The notes: generated by a model not told the origin, from the letters alone. DNA of 38,668 bases from Bacteroidota bacterium (GCA_039111535.1 JBCCIM010000036.1:1-38668), one strand, 5' to 3'; positions 3,576 to 14,438 are shown, counted from the stretch's first letter. Numbers and translations: made by a program.

Positions 3576-4307
3576 TCACGGAGGCACTGCGCCACTAAGA
3601 CCCGACTGTGAAAATACTACCCACGCATAGACGCCTATAAACAGCAACACACCGATAATCAGGCCAAACATAAATACATTATACGACCGACGGAGCAAGC
3701 TAAACTTCTTCTTAAGTACCGTTCCGAGCCCGTAAATGTCGCGAATCATGTTTACATAGAGGCTATCGGTATTTTGAAGCAATTCTTTCATCCCGATCAC
3801 AAAATCCTCTTCCGGCAGGCTCACAAAGTTGCCAAAAAACAACAGATTCTTGTTGTTATTCCGAACGTCTTCCAGGTTTAGCACTTGACTCGAAACCCTT
3901 GGCCGGGCAGCCAAAACAGCCAGCGCCATAGAGCCAAGACAGGTAAGGAGCAATACAGCTGTCGGAATCAACAACCACGGATTGGTATCTATCTTCGGAG
4001 AAATGGAAGCCAGAATAATGGAAATAATAATCCCATTGATACTGATCATAATGTTGGCCTTGGCATCAGCGAGCGCACTCAAGTCCATGTTAGTCCGGTA
4101 CGATGTTCTGAACATCGTTTCAATTCCCCGTGAAGTCCCCAACCCGGATTTATTGTCGTCCTTTTTCTTTTTCTTCTTTTTCTTCTTTTTACCCGCACTA
4201 GCCTCTCCTACTGCCGTTTCATAAACAGCAGATGATTCGCCTGATTCGGAGGACGCAGGTGACAACGCAGACGCATCTGCCTCGTCGGCTTTTACTTCTT
4301 CTGACAT
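3576..4307 (-). CDS. PycTM-like (DUF5706) membrane protein, Pycsar effector family
   Basis: A 243-residue membrane protein. Its core (FRTSYRTNMDLSALADAKA then NIMISINGIIIS) matches the DUF5706 / Pycsar-effector transmembrane family as I know it, including the LADxKANIMI signature. Three hydrophobic segments are visible: NIMISINGIIISIILAS, LLIPTAVLLLTCLGSMALAV and VFMFGLIIGVLLFIGVYAWV. In characterised Pycsar systems such proteins respond to cCMP or cUMP and damage the membrane during phage infection. Here no cyclase gene is visible, so a defence role is inference. The N-terminal ~60 residues are hydrophilic, Ser/Glu/Ala-rich, and carry a run of ten lysines. The ATG at 4307 (MSEEVKAD) is preferred over an upstream start at 4355, whose extra residues look non-coding. 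Confidence 0.75.
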   Translation of the reverse strand: MSEEVKADEADASALSPASSESGESSAVYETAVGEASAGKKKKKKKKKKDDNKSGLGTSRGIETMFRTSYRTNMDLSALADAKANIMISINGIIISIILASISPKIDTNPWLLIPTAVLLLTCLGSMALAVLAARPRVSSQVLNLEDVRNNNKNLLFFGNFVSLPEEDFVIGMKELLQNTDSLYVNMIRDIYGLGTVLKKKFSLLRRSYNVFMFGLIIGVLLFIGVYAWVVFSQSGLSGAVPP

Positions 4308-4531
4308 AAATGACTGTGGTCCGTTGTGACTAAACAAGGGCAACCGCACAAACAATTGCCCTTACTTGGTAAGGGCTAAATTACCATCTAGGCCCCTCTG
4401 TTCCAACTCTGGTTAAAACTATCTGATCAAAATCTGGTATTATACGCACCCCAATTGACAGAATTTGCAGAAAAGCCTATACCGGTTTTATACTCAAATT
4501 CACCAATTTCTTTCTATTGGACGGCCTACAC

Positions 4532-5581
4532 ATGCTGGTATTCTACCCATACCCCCTGCTCAAATACTTGGCCCTTGCGCTCAGCCTGGCTTGTTGTTCA
4601 CCGGCAGCACAGCCACAAACGCCCGAACCGCAAGCCACTGAATCCAATATATCTGAATCAGCAGACACCCTTGGCCCTGTTCCTACCGCACCAACTATGG
4701 CTGCACAAAACACCTCATCGCAAGATTCCCTAATACCGACACCTACCGCTGACCATACGCCTGCTAATGCGCACCCTTTTCCAAACAGCTATTCCTTCGA
4801 TGCGCCCGATGCATTGATGAAACTGGACAAATCGCTCAAAGAAATTTCCGGACTCACCTTGCTGGATGAACAACGCCTGGCAGCCGTCCAGGATGAAAAG
4901 GGAAAACTCTATATCATCAATGCCAGGAACGGCGAAATCAGCACGGACCGACGATTTGCTAAAGACGGCGACTTTGAAGGCATTGAACTGGCCGGCGATC
5001 TCCTTTATGCGCTCCGAAGCGATGGTGATCTTTATGAGATATCCGATTGGGACACCAAAGACCCCGATACCGAGAAGTTTGAAACGCACCTGGGTTCGAA
5101 AAACGATACGGAAGGCCTCACGTACGATGCAATGAACAACAGGCTACTGATTGTTTGCAAAGAACAACCGGGCGCCGGTCTGAAAAACGCGCGGGCAGTC
5201 TATAGTTTTGATCTCTCAACAAAAAAGATGAGCAAAGACCCCGTGCTAGTCATTGACCTCAAAGCGGTTGAAGCCCTTACTGAGAAGAACAAACTGAACA
5301 GCATTGTCCGCAACCTGGCAGCCCCCCTGACAAACCTCAGCGGTTTCAAGCCGGCCGGCCTTGCCATCCACCCGATAACCGGACAGCTGTTCATTATCTC
5401 CTCCGTACGCAAAGTTATCCTTGCCTACAACATGGATGGAACGCTTGAAGATGTCTGGTTGTTACCGGAAGATGATTTCCGCCAACCGGAAGGGTTGGCA
5501 TTTTTGCCCAATGGTGATTTATTTATTGCCAATGAAGGCGGCAACGGGGCGGCAACCCTGATGCGCTTTAACTACAAGTAA
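4532..5581 (+). CDS. SdiA-regulated-domain lipoprotein (beta-propeller-like)
   Basis: A 349-residue predicted lipoprotein: a hydrophobic leader ends in a lipobox-like ALSLAC at about residues 17-22, followed by a Pro/Thr/Ala/Ser-rich linker to about residue 85. The rest resembles the SdiA-regulated (YjiK-like) family, a beta-propeller of repeated strands: LKEISGLTLLDEQRLAAVQD, GDFEGIELAGDLLYALRSDG, NDTEGLTYDAMNNRLLIVCK, and near the end RQPEGLAFLPNGDLFIANEG. Family members are usually secreted or membrane-attached, with poorly known function; some resemble phytase-like or esterase propellers. A TTG 15 bases upstream is also in frame, but the ATG at 4532 gives the better signal peptide. The gene lies 106 bases before the large phosphoesterase-barrel gene on the same strand. 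Confidence 0.8.
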   Translation: MLVFYPYPLLKYLALALSLACCSPAAQPQTPEPQATESNISESADTLGPVPTAPTMAAQNTSSQDSLIPTPTADHTPANAHPFPNSYSFDAPDALMKLDKSLKEISGLTLLDEQRLAAVQDEKGKLYIINARNGEISTDRRFAKDGDFEGIELAGDLLYALRSDGDLYEISDWDTKDPDTEKFETHLGSKNDTEGLTYDAMNNRLLIVCKEQPGAGLKNARAVYSFDLSTKKMSKDPVLVIDLKAVEALTEKNKLNSIVRNLAAPLTNLSGFKPAGLAIHPITGQLFIISSVRKVILAYNMDGTLEDVWLLPEDDFRQPEGLAFLPNGDLFIANEGGNGAATLMRFNYK

Positions 5582-5687: not shown

Positions 5688-8600
5688 ATGATAGACACCC
5701 GCTACTTTCTAGTCCTCGTCCTTTTGTTGGCTGGCTGTGCGACCTCCAAGCCCTACGTTGCTGAGCGATACCGAGACTGGCAATCCAAGGATGCCCCGCC
5801 AGCCTCAGAACTGGACTATCGCGTGTTCCTCATTGGCGATGCAGGTGGTGCCCCCGAAGGCGGGACAACCCCTGGCCTCACCTTGCTAAAAAACCAACTG
5901 GATGCTGCTGGTGAAGATGCCGCCGTCGTTTTTCTTGGTGATAACATTTATTGCTGCGGCCTGCCGGATTCAGCCGCAGAAAACCGCGCATTTGCCGAGC
6001 ACCGACTCCTCGCCCAACTAAGGGCCGTCGAAGACTTTGGCGGGCGCGTTGTATTTGCACCCGGCAACCACGATTGGAACCACTCAGAACCTGGCGGCCT
6101 CGAAGCCCTTGCCCGGCAGGAAGCCTATGTAGAAGCATATCTGGGCGGAAAAAACGTTTTTAGGCCCGATAATGGTTTCCCTGGCCCTGAAGTAATAAAA
6201 TTAACGGACCGCGCCCGGCTTGTTGTTATCGACACAGAATGGTGGATCACCCCCCACGAAAAAGGCCAAGGTGAATACGACAACTTTGACATCGAGGAAA
6301 AAGGCGATTTCCTCGTAGCCCTCAATGAAGTTGTCAAAGAATATGACAAAGAAGATCTGCTTGTCATTGGACACCACCCCATCTATTCCAACAGTGAACA
6401 CGCGGGCAGATTCCCGTTACGCACACACATTTTCCCGCTCACAGAGCTCGCCCCCAAAGCCTACGTCCCCTTACCAATTTTAGGCTCGTTAGTGCCCATT
6501 TTTGTCCGTTATATCGGATTTAGGCAGGACATAGCGCACCCTACCTATCGTGCGCTTACCAGTTCGCTCCTCAGGGTTTTTGGAGAGCATGAATCAATCA
6601 TCTACGCCTCTGGCCACGATCATAACCTGCAATATTTCAAGGATCTACACCACGATTACATCGTCAGCGGTGGTGGCTCTCGCACATCTTATGTTGCCCG
6701 CGGCGGAGCAGCAAGTTTCACGTACGAAACGCAGGGCTTCTCCACACTCAATTATTATAAAGATGGCTCGATATGGATGACCATGTGGGCCGCTGATGAA
6801 GCCGGCGAAGGCGAAGTGGTATTCCGCAAAGAAATCAAGGGACCGGCGCGCGATGCAGTTGACGCTGAAGTCCCGGATAACCCTGACATGGTGTATCCAG
6901 ACTATTCAGACAGCACGTACGTCATAGCTGCCAACCCGAACTACAAGGCAAACGGCCTCTACGAATTCTTGCTTGGCAAACACAACAGAGATATCTGGGC
7001 CCTCCCCGTTGAGGTCCCTTATCTCGATATGGGTAAAGTTGCCGGCGGCCTTACGCCTGTCAAACGGGGTGGCGGGATGCAAACGTTCTCCTTGCGGCTT
7101 GCCGGCGAAGATGGCTTTGAATACGTTATTCGATCAATCGACAAAGACCCTTCGGTTTCTGTCCCGGAAGAATTACGCCAATCATTTGTGGCTGCCATCG
7201 TACAAGACCAGATAGCCTCCATCCATCCCTATGGCGCCTTTATCATACCCAAGCTCGCCAGTGCAGCCGGCGTTTACCATACTACCCCGCAACTCGTCTA
7301 CGTACCCGACGACCCGCGTCTCGGTGTGTACCGTGAGAAATTTGGTAAGCAACTCATGATGTTTGAGATTCGTCCCAGCGACGACATGTCGAACATGCAA
7401 CAGTTTGGCAACTCAGAAGACGTCATCAGTGCGACCAAATTTTACCAGGAAATTGAGGATGATAATGACAATCGCCTGGATGCCCCTGCATTTGCAAAGG
7501 TCCGGCTGTTCGACATGCTGCTCAGTGACTGGGACCGGCACAAGCTACAGTGGCGATGGGCCGAGTTTGACGATGATGACGGCAAAGGCAAGATGTATCG
7601 CCCCGTACCGCGCGACCGGGACTGGGCATTCAACAAGTTCGACGGCGTAATGCCTGCGCTGGTGCGTATTTCGTTTGACCCCAAATTCCAGGAGTTTGAC
7701 GAAGACTTTGGCAACCTGAAAGGGCTGTCTAAAAACGGGCACTGGCAAGACCGCCGGCTCACGGCCACCATCTCGCGCGATACATGGATCGAAAAAGCTG
7801 CCGAATTACAGGCAAGCCTCACGGACGAGGTGATTGATGCTGCCGTACAGGACTGGCCGGCGTCTGTTGTAGAATACCACGGCGATGAAATTGCAGCAAC
7901 CCTCAAGGTCCGGCGCGACAAATTGCATCTCGTTGCCGAAGAATACTACGAGATTCTGGCGCGCTACGTCGACATCGTCGGCTCCAATAAACACGAGCGG
8001 TTTGAAGTTAATCGTATCAGTGAAGAAGAAACTGAGTTAATTGTTTACAAAACCAGCAAAAAGGGAGAAAATCGCCAGGAGCTTATACGTCGGACGTTTT
8101 ATGCTGATGAGACAAGAGAATTGCGCCTTTTTGGTCTTGGTGGTAACGACCATTTCGAACTGGGTGGCCGCGTAAACACCGGCATTCTTGTACGCGCCAT
8201 TGGCGGCGTTGGGGATGATGTGTTTACTGACCACTCTGAAATCCTTGCCGGCGGCAACCGCGCCATTTTCTATGATACGCGCACCAGCAACGAAGCCACA
8301 GCCGGCCCAAACACCAAGGTGGTATTCTCCAACGACCCGGGTATAAATGCCTACGATCAGAAAGACTACCTGCACGACGCCAAGCTCCCCCAGGTGTTTT
8401 TCGGGCGTAACCAGGATGATGGAATCTTTGTCGGAGGCGGGATGAAGTTTGTCAAACATGGTTTTCGCAAAAAACCGTTTGACCGTTCCCAACGCATCGT
8501 GGGTAACTTTGCCGCGCTCACACAGGCCTTTAACCTGGTTTACGAAGGACAATTTGTCAACACGCTCGGCCAATGGGACCTGGGAATTGACGCCAACTAC

Positions 8601-9410
8601 CGCTCTCCCAACAACTTCCGAAACTTCTTTGGCCTTGGCAACGAGACCGTAAAAGACCAGGATGCAGAGTTTTTCCGGGCGCAACTGGCAACTGCCCTCT
8701 TTGCACCATCTCTTGAACTGACAGACTACGCCGGCACATCAATTGAGCTAGGCAGTTTTGTGCGCTATGTAGATGTGCGCAATGAAAGCGACACGTTCAT
8801 CAGTCAGGCCGGCATCGACGCGGGAAGCTTCAGGGATCAGGTGTTCTTCGGTCTATCCAGTGCAGCAACGCTCGATTTCACCGACCATCCGGCAAACCCG
8901 AAACAAGGCTTCCTCTGGGCAAACGATGCAGAGGTTAACATAGGCCTGTCGAACTCGGATGAAGTGTATTCAACCTTGCAGTCTGCCCTTTCCTTCTATA
9001 TATCACCTTCAACTTCTCCTCAAGTTACTCTGGCATTGCGCTTTGGGGGCGCCCACAACATAGGCGACTTTCCGTTTTATGCGGCCAACACCATTGGTGG
9101 TCGCCGAACGGTACGCGGCTGGCGTAGTAACCGGTTTGCCGGCCGCACAAGTGTTTACACCAACGCTGAGGTTCGTGCCAAGCTGTTCAACGTCAATTCC
9201 TACGTCGCCACCGGCGAATTTGGGTTGCTCGGTTTCTATGATAACGGACGCGTTTGGACGGAAGCAGATACGGTAACGGGCCGCGTCTGGCACCAGGGCT
9301 ACGGCGGCGGAATTTGGATAAGCCTCTTTGATGCCTTTGTACTCAATGCCACCATGGGCTTCTCTGAAGAAGATGAGATTTTCGACCTGAAATTTGGGTT
9401 TTTGTATTAG
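5688..9410 (+). CDS. Metallophosphoesterase / kinase-like / Omp85-type barrel fusion lipoprotein
   Basis: A 1240-residue outer-membrane protein with three parts. Residues 1-17 are a lipoprotein signal (LVLLLAGC, Cys17). Residues ~45-320 are a calcineurin-like metallophosphoesterase with GDAGG (50-54), GDN (84-86), GNHD (126-129), GHHP (~228-231) and GHDHN (~307-311). The middle (~470-730) has DWDRHKLQWRW near 614-624 and PRDRDWAF near 640-647, a pattern recalling the catalytic and metal-binding motifs of atypical kinases of the CotH/FAM20 type. Residues ~905-1240 resemble a BamA/TamA-type surface-antigen barrel (GGRRTVRGWRSNRFAG), ending in an aromatic residue (KFGFLY) as expected for BAM-dependent insertion. 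It probably removes phosphate from a substrate at the cell surface. Similar phosphoesterase-barrel fusions occur in Bacteroidota; the kinase comparison is my inference. Confidence 0.85.
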   Translation: MIDTRYFLVLVLLLAGCATSKPYVAERYRDWQSKDAPPASELDYRVFLIGDAGGAPEGGTTPGLTLLKNQLDAAGEDAAVVFLGDNIYCCGLPDSAAENRAFAEHRLLAQLRAVEDFGGRVVFAPGNHDWNHSEPGGLEALARQEAYVEAYLGGKNVFRPDNGFPGPEVIKLTDRARLVVIDTEWWITPHEKGQGEYDNFDIEEKGDFLVALNEVVKEYDKEDLLVIGHHPIYSNSEHAGRFPLRTHIFPLTELAPKAYVPLPILGSLVPIFVRYIGFRQDIAHPTYRALTSSLLRVFGEHESIIYASGHDHNLQYFKDLHHDYIVSGGGSRTSYVARGGAASFTYETQGFSTLNYYKDGSIWMTMWAADEAGEGEVVFRKEIKGPARDAVDAEVPDNPDMVYPDYSDSTYVIAANPNYKANGLYEFLLGKHNRDIWALPVEVPYLDMGKVAGGLTPVKRGGGMQTFSLRLAGEDGFEYVIRSIDKDPSVSVPEELRQSFVAAIVQDQIASIHPYGAFIIPKLASAAGVYHTTPQLVYVPDDPRLGVYREKFGKQLMMFEIRPSDDMSNMQQFGNSEDVISATKFYQEIEDDNDNRLDAPAFAKVRLFDMLLSDWDRHKLQWRWAEFDDDDGKGKMYRPVPRDRDWAFNKFDGVMPALVRISFDPKFQEFDEDFGNLKGLSKNGHWQDRRLTATISRDTWIEKAAELQASLTDEVIDAAVQDWPASVVEYHGDEIAATLKVRRDKLHLVAEEYYEILARYVDIVGSNKHERFEVNRISEEETELIVYKTSKKGENRQELIRRTFYADETRELRLFGLGGNDHFELGGRVNTGILVRAIGGVGDDVFTDHSEILAGGNRAIFYDTRTSNEATAGPNTKVVFSNDPGINAYDQKDYLHDAKLPQVFFGRNQDDGIFVGGGMKFVKHGFRKKPFDRSQRIVGNFAALTQAFNLVYEGQFVNTLGQWDLGIDANYRSPNNFRNFFGLGNETVKDQDAEFFRAQLATALFAPSLELTDYAGTSIELGSFVRYVDVRNESDTFISQAGIDAGSFRDQVFFGLSSAATLDFTDHPANPKQGFLWANDAEVNIGLSNSDEVYSTLQSALSFYISPSTSPQVTLALRFGGAHNIGDFPFYAANTIGGRRTVRGWRSNRFAGRTSVYTNAEVRAKLFNVNSYVATGEFGLLGFYDNGRVWTEADTVTGRVWHQGYGGGIWISLFDAFVLNATMGFSEEDEIFDLKFGFLY

Positions 9411-9719: not shown

Positions 9720-10928
9720 CTATTGATTGCCGTTGTCCATATCGGCGTGGATATGCCACCGACCGTCATCTCCCCTCTTAAGGGCTAGAATAAATTTGCC
9801 GGCATCCGGACCGTCTGCTATCGCACGATATCCCCCAATGATATAAGCCACGGCATCTTCCACCGCAAAATCTTTCGCGCGTAACAACAATGGACCGCCG
9901 GAATTCCGGTACGCTTCAGCAATGGCAACGCGCCCACGGACAGCCGGACGGCCCGGGCGTAAAATGAAGCCATCTTCAGTAAACAGCGCCGCAAGCGCCT
10001 CCGCGTCGCGGTTTTGCCAGTGCGTTTCGTAATCACGGAGCACGCGGTCTAGTTCAGCCGGCAGCTCCACCGAAGGCAGCGCGTGTGGATACGGCTCATT
10101 TGAATCCTGTTTCTCTAGTAAAAACTCCTGCACGCGCGCCAAATCATCAGCATTCAGGAAATCTACCCCGGCATCGTATAATACCTGCCACACAGCCGGG
10201 TTATCAGACGTAGCCCAGAATCGAATTTTACGGCCCTCACTGTGGGCTTGCGCGACAATTTCAGCCAATTTTTCGCGGGCTTCTGCCGGCATTTCGCCAT
10301 TTCCAAACCACCTGGCTACCTGCATCCAGTTACTGCTAACCAGCGGCATGAACGCAGTTGGCAGGGGCGGATTCAGGCCAAGGTCTTCCAGCCGGCCGTC
10401 ATATGCTGCAAAACGGACCGTTTCCTCTAACATCGTTTCTCTATCTCTGTTGCCAGAGATAATGGCGGTCACTGGCCCAGGAATCGCTACACCATCGTTG
10501 AATTCTGTAAACATGTTGGGGTACCCGGCCAGCACTTCGCGCAAAACTTTGTAGGTCGAAACGGCTTCCGATTTCACATCAATCAACAACACAATAGAAT
10601 GGGGCAGACCATATACACTGCCGCCGTTTACCTGGATCTGTTCCTTTAACGGATCGAGATACATGTGCTCTAACGTTAGCTCAGAATCAACATCCTCAAG
10701 GTCGTGCGCCACAAGCAGCGCACCGTCAACCAGGTGGATATCTACTTCGATGCTCCCTATTCCACGCGAAAGAGCCTCCAACAATGGGCGCTCCTGTTCG
10801 TAATCATTGTGCGCATGCGCGCGCCAGAGCGGCGTCACTTGCGATGCTTCCTGGGCGTATGCGTTACCGGGTATTGAACTCAGCAATACTAAAAGCATTA
10901 CACCAAAATAACACACAAGATATTTCAT
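9720..10928 (-). CDS. Secreted GDPD/PI-PLC-like phosphodiesterase with C-terminal SnoaL/DUF4440-like domain
   Basis: A 402-residue exported protein. The ATG at 10928 (MKYLVCYFGVMLLVLL) starts a signal peptide ending near AYAQ (residue ~26); the longer frame to 11039 overlaps the divergent PhoX-like gene and is not used. Residues ~35-275 form a TIM-barrel phosphodiesterase: HAHNDY (38-43), EVDIH (61-65), VAHD (73-76) and WATSDNPAVWQ near the end of the barrel. Glycerophosphodiester phosphodiesterases and PI-PLC-like enzymes share this fold. Residues ~285-402 (RDYETHWQNRDAEALAALF, then VRGRVAIAEAYR) look like an NTF2/SnoaL/DUF4440 domain, often a small-molecule pocket. The likely role is periplasmic hydrolysis of a phosphodiester; the substrate is unknown. 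Confidence 0.85.
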   Translation of the reverse strand: MKYLVCYFGVMLLVLLSSIPGNAYAQEASQVTPLWRAHAHNDYEQERPLLEALSRGIGSIEVDIHLVDGALLVAHDLEDVDSELTLEHMYLDPLKEQIQVNGGSVYGLPHSIVLLIDVKSEAVSTYKVLREVLAGYPNMFTEFNDGVAIPGPVTAIISGNRDRETMLEETVRFAAYDGRLEDLGLNPPLPTAFMPLVSSNWMQVARWFGNGEMPAEAREKLAEIVAQAHSEGRKIRFWATSDNPAVWQVLYDAGVDFLNADDLARVQEFLLEKQDSNEPYPHALPSVELPAELDRVLRDYETHWQNRDAEALAALFTEDGFILRPGRPAVRGRVAIAEAYRNSGGPLLLRAKDFAVEDAVAYIIGGYRAIADGPDAGKFILALKRGDDGRWHIHADMDNGNQ

Positions 10929-10933
10929 TAATC

Positions 10934-10979
10934 TACCTTTGATTAGGTATGTGAATAAGCGCTGCATTGCGTACCTTTG
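10934..10979 (+). promoter_or_regulatory. Two TACCTTTG (-7-like) boxes upstream of the PhoX-like gene
   Basis: TACCTTTG occurs exactly at 10934-10941 and again at 10972-10979, in the 81-base gap between the divergent GDPD-like and PhoX-like genes. Both fit the TAnnTTTG -7 consensus of Bacteroidota sigma factors. I do not find a well-spaced -33 TTG for either, so this is a weak prediction. The second would place transcription start shortly before the ATG at 11010. Confidence 0.3.
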
Positions 10980-11009
10980 CCCATCCTCGAACAAAACGAC
11001 AAAAAGCCG

Positions 11010-12383
11010 ATGGCCAGCCGCCGTAAATTTTTCAAACAAGCTACCGCCGTTTCACTGGGTTTTGCAGGTCTCCATTCTTTTATGGGTTGTGCAAACCCAG
11101 CTTTACAATCCATTGCAACCCCACCCCTTGTAGCTGATCCGCTGAAGGTACTGAGCCTGCCAGACGGTTTTTCCTACAAAGTTATTTCAAAAGCCGGCAA
11201 TCAAATGATTGATGGGTTCCGGGTGCCTTATGCTCCTGATGGCATGGCTACGTTTGATGGACCTGACGACTTGACCATCATCGTGCGCAACCATGAAGTG
11301 GGACTACAAACAGGCGCCGGCGCTTATGGGCCAGAAAATGCGCTTTTTGCTAACATCGACCCAACGCTGTTGTACGACGCAGGCTTTGGCAAAACCCCCT
11401 CACTTGGTGGGACGTCGACCATTGTCTATGATACAAAAAAGCAGGAAGTGGTTCGGGAATTTCTGAGCCTTGCCGGCACCATTCGTAATTGTGCTGGCGG
11501 CCCTACGCCCTGGAGCAGTTGGATCACCTGTGAAGAAAGCACAGAGCGGGCCGGCAAAAACACAGAAAAAGACCACGGCTACAACTTTGAAGTACCGGCT
11601 ACACTTGAGCCTGCCATTGCAGCGCCCGTCCCTTTGAAAGCGATGGGCAGATTCAACCACGAGGCAGTGGCTGTCGAACCGGAATCAGGCATTGTCTATC
11701 AGACTGAAGACCGACATGATGGTTTAATTTACCGGTTCATTCCCGACGTCCCCGGGCAGCTCGCGGAAGGTGGCAAACTTCAGGCCCTTGCCGTTATCGG
11801 ACAGGATAGCATGGATACCCGCAACTGGGAGTCAGACGCAACCGTGCGACTTGGCGAGCAACTGCCAGTGCGCTGGGTAGACCTCGACAATGTCGAGGCA
11901 CCAGACGATGATCTACGCTACCGCGGATATGCCACAGGTGCGGCGCGTTTTGCACGTGGTGAAGGGATGTGGTATGGCGACAACACCATTTTCTTTGCTT
12001 GCACCAACGGTGGTATTGCAAAGAAAGGACAGATCTGGAAATACGTACCGAGTGCTGCAGAAGGCACACCACAGGAAAATGATAACCCAGGTTACCTGGA
12101 ACTGTTTGTTGAGCCGAATGACAGAGAAATTGTAGAAAACGCGGACAACCTGACGATTGCCCCCTGGGGTGACCTGTTTGTCTGTGAAGATGGAGATGGC
12201 AAACAAAATCTGCTCCGCGTTACCCCTGCCGGCGAAGTTATCCGATTTGGCACCAACATGATCAGCGAATCAGAATTTGCCGGCTCCACGTTTTCGCCCG
12301 ATGGCACAACCTTGTTTGTAAACATCCAGGGAGACGGCCTTACACTCGCCATTACTGGACCATGGGAGCAATTTAGTGGGTAA
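11010..12383 (+). CDS. PhoX-type (DUF839) phosphatase family protein, Tat-exported
   Basis: A 457-residue protein of the PhoX/DUF839 family, Ca2+-dependent phosphatases that release phosphate from organic esters outside the cytoplasm. The N-terminus MASRRKFFKQATAVSLGFAG has a twin-arginine motif (SRRKFFK), followed by Cys27, so a Tat-exported and perhaps lipid-anchored form is possible. Family-like stretches include LPDGFSYKVIS, DGMATFDGPDDLTIIVRNHE, CAGGPTPWSSWITCEES, GRFNHEAVAVEPESG, EDRHDGLIYRF and ADNLTIAPWGDLFVCEDG. The start at ATG 11010 keeps the Tat motif at the extreme N-terminus; a TTG at 10977 is less plausible. It is divergent from the GDPD-like gene and ends ten bases from the convergent ppk1, so phosphate acquisition is a plausible shared theme. 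Confidence 0.88.
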   Translation: MASRRKFFKQATAVSLGFAGLHSFMGCANPALQSIATPPLVADPLKVLSLPDGFSYKVISKAGNQMIDGFRVPYAPDGMATFDGPDDLTIIVRNHEVGLQTGAGAYGPENALFANIDPTLLYDAGFGKTPSLGGTSTIVYDTKKQEVVREFLSLAGTIRNCAGGPTPWSSWITCEESTERAGKNTEKDHGYNFEVPATLEPAIAAPVPLKAMGRFNHEAVAVEPESGIVYQTEDRHDGLIYRFIPDVPGQLAEGGKLQALAVIGQDSMDTRNWESDATVRLGEQLPVRWVDLDNVEAPDDDLRYRGYATGAARFARGEGMWYGDNTIFFACTNGGIAKKGQIWKYVPSAAEGTPQENDNPGYLELFVEPNDREIVENADNLTIAPWGDLFVCEDGDGKQNLLRVTPAGEVIRFGTNMISESEFAGSTFSPDGTTLFVNIQGDGLTLAITGPWEQFSG

Positions 12384-12392
12384 CCAACGACG

Positions 12393-13391
12393 TTAAACCT
12401 GGCCGCCAAGCAATTCGTACGAAGCATATTGCGCACGCGTTTTTTTGCGGCGTGATTTCACGTACGCGTTGCTGTGCTGGGCATCGATAACCCGCGCCTT
12501 CGTGTTGTCTCGAAGCTGTATGTCGAGCATGCGTTTCATTTCGCGGAACAGGGTGCGGTTGTAAATCGGGAATGCCACCTCAATGCGCCGGCTCAGGTTG
12601 CGCTTCATCCAGTCTGCTGAAGCAAGATACATGACCGGTTTACCGGCATTGTGAAACAGGTATACCCGCGCGTGTTCGAGGAAACGATCCACAATGCTCG
12701 TAACCTGGATATTTTCACTCTGCCCCGGTATGCCCGGTACAAGGCGACAAATACCCCGCACAACGATCCTGATGTTCACGCCGGCCTGGCTTGCTTTGTA
12801 TAACCGGGCGATAATTTTCTCGTCTTCGAGGCTGTTCATCTTCAAGGTCATCTCAGCCTTCCGCCCCGCTTTTGCCTCCGCAATTTCCTGTTCGATCAGC
12901 GCATTAAATTGTTTGCGCATGTTAAATGGCGCAACCAGCAGGTGCTCGAACTTCGGGTTCTTCCGTTTGCCGTTTAGAAATTGAAAGACTTTGTTGATCT
13001 CAGCAGTGAGGCGTTTGTCAGCTGTTAAAATTGCCTCATCTACATAAACACGCGCTGTTTTCTCGTTGAAATTACCCGTACCGAGATAACAATACCTTAC
13101 ACGGTTCTCCCCTTCTCTGCGCACAACCATGGCAATTTTTGCATGCACTTTGAGTCCGGGCATGCTGTATAGCACCTTCACGCCGGCCTCTTCCATTTGA
13201 GAAGCCCAATATAAATTAGACGCCTCGTCGAACCGTGCTTTCACCTCCACAAAAACCGTTACTTTCTTGCCGGCTTTCCGGGCAGCAATCAGCGCCTGCG
13301 TTATCGCAGATTTGCTTGCAACACGATAGAGCGAAGCCCAGATCTCCTCAACCTGCTCATCTGCAGCTGCTTCTTCGAAAAAGCGGATCAC
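12393..13391 (-). pseudogene. ppk1: Polyphosphate kinase 1, C-terminal fragment after an in-frame stop
   Basis: This is the catalytic C-terminal half of PPK1, which makes polyphosphate from ATP. From a GTG at 13391 it reads 332 residues, including KKVTVFVEVKARFDEASN, GLKVHAK (His83 of the fragment, matching the autophosphorylated His of the family), GTGNFNEKTARVY, and RFLEHARVYLF (His240, the second conserved His), ending RAQYASYELLGGQV. Eighteen in-frame codons between the TAG at 13446-13448 and the GTG (encoding VIAKKDQLLHFPFQSYDP) are also family-like. The break is therefore one nonsense codon, not a frameshift or deletion. Translation could restart at the GTG, but no strong ribosome-binding site is seen. 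It converges on the PhoX-like gene with a nine-base gap. Confidence 0.85.
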
Positions 13392-13445
13392 AGGGTCGTA
13401 AGACTGGAAGGGAAAATGCAGTAGTTGGTCCTTCTTTGCAATGAC

Positions 13446-14438
13446 CTACAATATGGAAGGTGCTTCCGTCAGCACAGGATGCGCCAGCGGCGGCATCGGC
13501 TTATACATCAAGTGCTTTTTATCAAACCGGGGGAAACCAAACAAATCGTGCAGGTTGTGATAGCGCCCGCCCAGCACCATGTCTGAATTGTTGAGGTTCA
13601 GCTTCTCTTTAACCAGCGCGGCAAGCGCAAAAGGCATTGATAAATCGTAGAGGCAACGCGTGGGCAAGCCCGTGACTCGTTTTTTCAGGCTTTTGCGGAT
13701 CATCTCGACAAGGTCTCCTGAAAACTCATCTTCGAGATAAAGATCTGCATCACGCGAAAGCTTGATTCCGTATGTATTCCCCGTTTCGCGCTCCGGATAT
13801 ACTTTCCCAATGTTGAAGCGGATGACGTCTTCAATAAACATGACATACCGCTTCCTCCCTTGCGCTGGCAATTCTACAAAACGCGGAAGCGTTTCACAGG
13901 GTACTTCCAGTAGCATGTGGTCAGGTGCATCTGAATTTTCCCGCCAAATTTCAGTTGCGAGGTATACAGTGCGGTTTTTCACAAAGTAGTCTGCAGCCAG
14001 AGTTTGCAATGCAACCGGCTTTAATTGTGCTAAAACCTCTTTTTCGAAATAAGACTGCAGGAAAGTCTGCTGGCGCTCACTCAGGTTTTGCTCGTTTAGC
14101 AGAAAGATGCCTTCTGCCTCAAGCGCCGGCAACAGGTCCCGCCAAATGGCACCAAAACGCTCTTGCTGCGCCGTAACAATTTCGTTGATCTCTCGGACAA
14201 GCCGGGCCGGATTGAAATCTAACTTCTTGACTGACTTCCGCTTTAATCGCACCAGGCTGCGCATCGATGCGACCCGAACCCGAAAAAACTCATCCAAATT
14301 GGAAGAATAGATGGCAAGAAATGACAGGCGCTCTAAAAGTGGCACATTTGGATCTTCAGCTTCCTGCAGGACGCGGGCGTTAAACGATAGCCAGCTGATC
14401 TCACGGTTCTCATATACCATTGCTTTTTTCTCAGCCAT
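13446..14438 (-). pseudogene. ppk1: Polyphosphate kinase 1, N-terminal fragment ending at premature TAG
   Basis: The N-terminal 330 residues of PPK1. NREISWLSFNARVLQEAEDP near the start and AIYSSNLDEFFRVRVASM are hallmark N-domain sequences, and the fragment ends GFPRFDKKHLMYKPMPPLAHPVLTEAPSIL before TAG. In normal PPK1 this region runs straight into the catalytic C1 domain, as the following codons do here in the same frame. Together with the C-terminal fragment the gene would encode about 681 residues, the usual PPK1 length. TAG serves as an ordinary stop elsewhere in the window (e.g. at 9408-9410), so general stop-codon reassignment is unlikely. The fragment alone lacks both catalytic histidines. 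A sequencing error, a recent nonsense mutation or readthrough are all possible. Confidence 0.85.

Follow-up and report, generated by a model that had tools for sequence, protein, structure and literature searches.

The protein encoded at positions 5,688–9,410 of a 38,668-nucleotide stretch of Bacteroidota DNA (GCA_039111535.1, JBCCIM010000036.1:1-38668; the whole stretch is called the window here) joins a metallophosphoesterase, a middle domain and an outer-membrane Omp85 barrel, and its middle domain represents a new family of exported kinase-fold proteins that lacks annotation, set in an architecture already known in part. The kinase-like fold, seen in a predicted model, is well supported. 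We propose that the fusion protein is, on balance, probably an outer-membrane-tethered phospho-enzyme, with a putative role in phosphate transfer to, and removal from, an envelope substrate. Computed support comes from the fold, the conservation of catalytic-type residues, the export signals, a split-gene version of the three modules and conserved neighbours. The gene and its parts, all on the + strand, are laid out as follows:

5,688–9,410, +: metallophosphoesterase (MPE)–kinase-fold–Omp85 fusion protein, 1,240 aa; open frame, Pfam Metallophos and Omp85 matches, full-length homologues among the relatives searched
5,688–5,738, +: lipoprotein signal peptide, MIDTRYFLVLVLLLAGC, with lipobox LAGC and Cys17; export signal in all family members examined
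5,820–6,857, +: calcineurin-like MPE domain, residues 45–390; PF00149, E 6.7e-7, with all metal-ligand motifs
6,933–8,087, +: predicted kinase-fold domain, residues 416–800, aligned to kinases over residues ~442–760 (AlphaFold, Foldseek, VIA)
7,059–7,085, +: glycine-rich stretch KRGGGMQTF of the N-lobe, residues 458–466, between model strands 40–48 and 51–58; G462 kept in 132/133 aligned members
7,143–7,145, +: K486, candidate nucleotide-binding lysine, directly after the third N-lobe strand of the model; K in 134/134 aligned members
7,365–7,367, +: E560, at the end of the inter-lobe strand (model strand 140–146); E in 133/134 aligned members
7,527–7,550, +: catalytic-loop motif DWDRHxxQ, residues 614–621; conserved, aligned with the CotH catalytic loop
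7,608–7,631, +: metal-binding-type motif PRDRDWAF, residues 641–648; D643 and D645 conserved, aligned with CotH PIWDFNLAFG / IPWDYDATWG
7,983–8,342, +: beta-rich segment between the kinase-fold domain and the barrel, residues ~766–885; strands at 5–115 of the 766–1240 model
8,379–9,407, +: 16-stranded Omp85 barrel with a VRGW-type loop-6 motif, residues 1142–1145; strand count, Foldseek, Pfam Omp85

Domain layout and the predicted fold of the middle domain

The gene is a single open frame running from an ATG at 5,688 to a stop that ends at 9,410, and the N-terminus of its product reads as a lipoprotein-type signal. Pfam placed Metallophos at residues 45–245 (E 6.7e-7) and Omp85 at residues 959–1209 (E 5e-13) with no match between the two segments, and an NCBIfam search returned nothing beyond sub-threshold Omp85-type matches. 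An earlier note on this DNA had described a phosphoesterase, a usually unannotated middle and an Omp85-type barrel, and all of these were found as described, behind the lipoprotein signal; the middle domain is missed by sequence searches of Pfam, NCBIfam and the PDB. The note had put the middle at ~250 residues; the domain is present, and at ~385 residues (416–800) it is considerably larger.

The complete set of phosphoesterase motifs that had been reported is also there: IGD51AG, GD85NIY, GN127H128D, GH229H230P and GH310DH312. The PF00149 profile scores 30.4 bits against a cut-off of 21.5, placing the domain in this family, and the motif pattern DDYNHHHH is common to 80 of the ~100 aligned MPE segments.

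The middle domain was modelled with AlphaFold from an input of 70 homologous middle domains, giving a mean pLDDT of 93.2 and a pTM of 0.92. In the predicted model the domain takes the two-lobe form of the protein-kinase-like fold superfamily. Comparison of this model with the PDB by Foldseek returned CtkA (4.9e-6) and HipA (3.9e-4) among the best matches, along with Rio2 and PI4KIIa, while VIA alignment gave Z scores of 14.5 for PI4KIIb, 14.2 for CotH, 13.4 for CtkA, 11.0 for HipA and 10.4 for Golgi casein kinase. CotH (5jda) superposes over 256 residues at 4.4 Å, and the alignments to kinases cover model residues 27–345. Among the best 50 VIA matches listed, 49 are kinases by name, the exception being LepB of Legionella. 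These data bear out the suggestion that the middle of the protein is kinase-like: the top structural matches of the predicted fold are the kinase folds of CtkA, HipA, PI4KII and CotH.

At the level of sequence the relationship is far more distant. Searches of PDB and Pfam sequences with the middle-domain alignment and its members gave chance matches only, and the Pfam profiles for CotH (PF08757), HipA (PF07804) and FAM20 matched neither the fusion protein nor the middle-domain members. When 19 profiles were compared with the middle domain by hhalign, CotH came out on top at a weak E of 0.006, with the best unrelated control at 0.019 and HipA at 0.11, so that remote homology to CotH or HipA by sequence alone is not significant. 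As these matches are too weak to prove homology by themselves, they were used for motif register only, in which GDWDRH falls on the WD loop of CotH and PIPRDRDWAF on IPWDYD/PIWDFNLAFG.

Conservation of kinase-type residues and distribution of the family

Conservation was counted over ~135 aligned members, some of them found by profile score instead of by motif. Within the catalytic-loop motif, D614 is kept in 134/135, D616 in 126/135, H618 in 130/135 and Q621 in 132/135; within the metal-binding-type motif, D643 is kept in 134/135 and D645 in 133/135. With K486 and E560 included, conservation of the seven residues K486, E560, D614, D616, Q621, D643 and D645 thus lies at 93–100%. The conservation of the Asp and His positions, which the earlier note had offered as a check on its reading, is therefore borne out by counts of 126–134 of 135 for D614, D616, H618, D643 and D645. 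Its placement of DWDRH at 614–618 was correct, and its "D641–D643" lay two residues off, since in PRDRDWAF, at 641–648, the two Asp fall at 643 and 645.

The near-invariant set includes a conserved Lys (K486), a catalytic-type Asp (D616), and a metal-type Gln and Asp (Q621, D643), as expected of a kinase by motif. By motif comparison, rather than by geometry, D616 would be expected to act as the catalytic base and D643 as the metal-binding Asp. The position of Q621 is occupied by Asn in most kinases, and an invariant Gln there is unusual.

It is unlikely, though deserving of weight, that the middle domain is instead a pseudokinase, which would bind a ligand or partner and gate the phosphoesterase or the barrel without transferring phosphate. 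Seven otherwise intact homologues, all without an MPE domain, have replaced D616 with Gly (four) or Ser (three), and three of the seven have also replaced H618 with Arg; K486, E560, D614, D643 and D645 are retained in them. These seven are pseudokinases, or else D616 is not essential. An exported location without ATP would also suit such a protein. However, D616 is retained in every MPE-carrying member examined, and K486, E560, Q621, D643 and D645, residues of the kind that pseudokinases usually lose, are near-invariant over the ~135 members. Two further proteins, L197 and L200, are broadly degenerate, and some standalone copies of the kinase-fold domain read DWSRR instead of DWDRH.

Full-length homologues at 38–63% identity were found in many of the 60 relatives searched, and 17 full-length proteins align end to end, with DWDRH and both Asp of DRD invariant. 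A scan of GTDB genomes identified at least 577 encoded relatives, in Rhodothermota, Bacteroidota, Ignavibacteria and Gemmatimonadota, and a profile search independent of the motifs found the kinase-fold domain in 115 of the 296 sampled genomes of the phylum. With homologues down to 38% identity, motifs kept in the aligned ones and this breadth of occurrence, the DWDRH and DRD motifs are far beyond chance.

Displayed on a tree, the family comprises 90 MPE–kinase–barrel rows, 17 kinase–barrel rows and 19 standalone exported forms, with the N-terminal part gained or lost at least four times. Across the family the kinase-fold domain is the constant element, to which phosphoesterase and barrel are variably joined. 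At L183 and L184, in two genomes, a kinase-fold lipoprotein, an MPE and a barrel are encoded by three consecutive genes on one strand, in that order, an arrangement that speaks for joint action of the three modules. An export signal is present in 126/126 family members examined: a simple hydrophobicity rule for a lipobox or hydrophobic N-terminus called it in 125, and the N-terminus of L094, where this crude rule called the signal absent, reads by eye as a signal peptide.

Kinase-fold genes of the standalone exported form are found alone or in groups of two or three (L185, L186, L047, L048, L087), and at L047 and L048 such a gene lies beside an MPE–kinase–barrel gene. At L199 (4011–6089, −), a 693-aa relative has kept the barrel, but of the kinase-fold domain it retains no more than a C-terminal remnant (E 3e-9); it is likely a degenerate form. 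The genome of the window encodes a second copy of the fusion protein (G000:C134:42-2561 and G000:C192:4-1194), apparently a single gene interrupted by the ends of two contigs.

The barrel and the side of the membrane

Residues 766–1240 were modelled at a pLDDT of 90.6, as a beta-rich segment followed by 16 strands that begin at model residue 133. Foldseek matched the barrel model to BamA (4.8e-11) and also to Sam50 and TamA, in agreement with the BamA/TamA-like barrel that had been claimed. The PF01103 match (E 5e-13), the 16 strands and VRGW at 1142–1145, a motif of the VRGF/Y type, place the barrel in the Omp85 superfamily. The segment ahead of it, seen within the 766–1240 model, is predicted to be all-beta and almost without helix, unlike POTRA domains. 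Omp85 members without N-terminal domains have been described (PMC4104836). Here the barrel is preceded by the kinase-fold and MPE part, so that the enzymatic domains stand where POTRA domains usually are.

On which side of the membrane would these domains lie? The earlier note favoured the cell surface; in such a reading the barrel would be a translocon and the MPE and kinase-fold domains its surface passengers, much as in the original type Vd proposal. Many members carry lipoprotein signals, and Bacteroidota are known to have lipoproteins at the cell surface; both points count for this arrangement. We nevertheless regard it as improbable: the N-terminal patatin domain of PlpD, which is the most thoroughly studied fusion of an enzyme to Omp85, was shown to be periplasmic (PMC11116518), and some standalone members of the family (L188–L191) have an N-terminal membrane helix that looks uncleaved. 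The part before the barrel is periplasmic in Omp85 proteins, as shown for PlpD (PMC11116518), which makes the surface the less likely side. By this analogy, the enzymatic domains of the fusion protein more likely face the periplasm.

Gene neighbourhood, mechanism and known systems

Three neighbours of the gene in the window recur near kinase-fold genes elsewhere:

3,576–4,355, −: PycTM (PF18967) membrane protein, divergent neighbour; PF18967, 1.9e-29
4,517–5,581, +: SdiA-regulated/phytase-like beta-propeller, upstream partner; PF06977, 2.2e-10
12,393–14,438, −: polyphosphate kinase PPK1 with one in-frame TAG; PP_kinase domains, stop at 13,446–13,448

We surveyed neighbours at 97 loci, which span several bacterial classes and include related species, so that the counts are not independent. 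A homologue of the SdiA-like propeller adjoins the kinase-fold gene in 28/97, most often immediately upstream, and at several loci the two genes overlap; an HD-PycTM homologue lies near it in 52/97, PPK1 in 19/97 and SixA in 16/97. These conserved neighbours suggest a phosphate or polyphosphate context.

The PycTM protein of the window is without the HD domain that is carried by homologues near the same gene. As HD-PycTM is a conserved neighbour, the label "Pycsar effector" need not mean defence here. An anti-phage reading was considered and set aside: the PycTM neighbour matches the PADLOC Pycsar and 2TM-effector models, but no PADLOC model matches the fusion protein, and no cyclase partner was established. 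The TAG of the PPK1 gene falls between the middle and C-terminal domains, both halves being otherwise intact, and may reflect a mistake in sequencing or assembly, a genuine nonsense mutation or a site of read-through. Downstream of the fusion gene, positions 9,720–12,383 hold a GDPD-like/DUF4440 protein (−) and a PhoX-type alkaline phosphatase (+), forming a run of phosphate-related genes. Scans of the region for promoters and terminators found promoter-like sites no denser than in shuffles.

With PhoX, the GDPD-like protein, the phytase-like propeller and PPK1 all in the window, and with MPE motifs intact in most MPE-bearing members, the fusion protein might be thought a phosphate-scavenging outer-membrane enzyme, whose MPE domain hydrolyses organic phosphates for uptake while the kinase fold recognises the phosphorylated substrate. 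We hold this to be quite improbable. The MPE domain is dispensable, being absent from kinase–barrel and standalone forms through at least four changes on the tree; in L041 and L085 its motifs are degenerate while those of the kinase fold, DWDRH among them, stay; and PhoX was not found near the gene at the other loci of the neighbour survey.

In the phospho-enzyme reading that we prefer, the lipid anchor and the 16-stranded barrel would tether a pair of enzymatic domains that most likely face the periplasm: the metallophosphoesterase and an atypical, exported kinase-fold domain whose fold is akin to those of CotH, PI4KII and HipA/CtkA. Together these would put phosphate on, and take it off, a substrate in the envelope, be it protein, lipid or small molecule, amid genes linked to phosphate and polyphosphate, and the beta-propeller encoded upstream would work together with the fusion protein. 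Such catalysis is inferred, as are the roles of individual residues, the periplasmic side, the substrate, the phosphate donor and a possible cycling between the two enzymatic domains. The periplasm is without ATP, as noted for Omp85 proteins (PMC11116518), so that a phosphate donor must be found; that polyphosphate serves as this donor is speculation. In CotH, too, the source of ATP has been called unanswered (PMC7821199).

These results assign a type of structure to a large and conserved domain left blank by Pfam and NCBIfam, and point to phosphorylation reactions beyond the bacterial cytoplasm, where ATP is not expected. With its clear catalytic-type residues, its standalone exported members and its split operon, the family lends itself to a direct test of activity. 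It is conceivable, if unlikely as a whole, that the domain represents an unrecognised family of exported bacterial kinases at work in the envelopes of Bacteroidota, Rhodothermota, Ignavibacteria and Gemmatimonadota, in many cases joined covalently to a phosphatase of its own upon an outer-membrane barrel, and drawing on a non-ATP donor, possibly polyphosphate from the neighbouring PPK1.

The fusion protein almost certainly belongs to the Omp85 "Metallo" subfamily, in which a PF00149 domain likewise stands ahead of the barrel. This subfamily was defined by PF00149 and termed metalloprotease, with no mention of a kinase (Heinz and Lithgow, 2014; PMC4104836). That reading would be corrected: the members of PF00149 are phosphoesterases, and a predicted kinase fold occupies the middle of the protein. 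Among openly licensed papers, none was found to describe a kinase-like domain in Omp85 proteins; the MPE–Omp85 architecture is already published, and its kinase-like middle appears to be unreported.

Of the kinases compared, the spore-coat kinase CotH (PF08757; PDB 5jd9, 5jda) has a like fold (Z 14.2), with the catalytic loop and a DxDxAF-type motif in alignment; its D228 is required for activity (PMC7821199). The fusion protein differs from CotH in having no PF08757 match, a loop Gln in place of Asn, a barrel and MPE fusion, and export to the outer membrane. The PI4KII lipid kinases, HipA and CtkA are the top structural matches of the middle domain, with no match at the sequence level. The loop of PI4KII reads D-R-G-N-D-N-W, which the D-R-x-x-x-Q-W of the fusion protein resembles; HipA and PI4KII act in or on the cytosol side. 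Kinases of the secretory-pathway FAM20 type (PDB 4kqa), with a DRH catalytic motif, are exported too, and are a weaker structural match than CotH (VIA Z 10.4); unlike the fusion protein, they are eukaryotic and have neither barrel nor phosphatase. PlpD and other patatin-Omp85 proteins share with the fusion protein the arrangement of an enzyme domain ahead of an Omp85 barrel, but where PlpD joins a patatin lipase to POTRA, the fusion protein joins an MPE domain, a predicted kinase fold and a beta-rich segment without POTRA-like helices.
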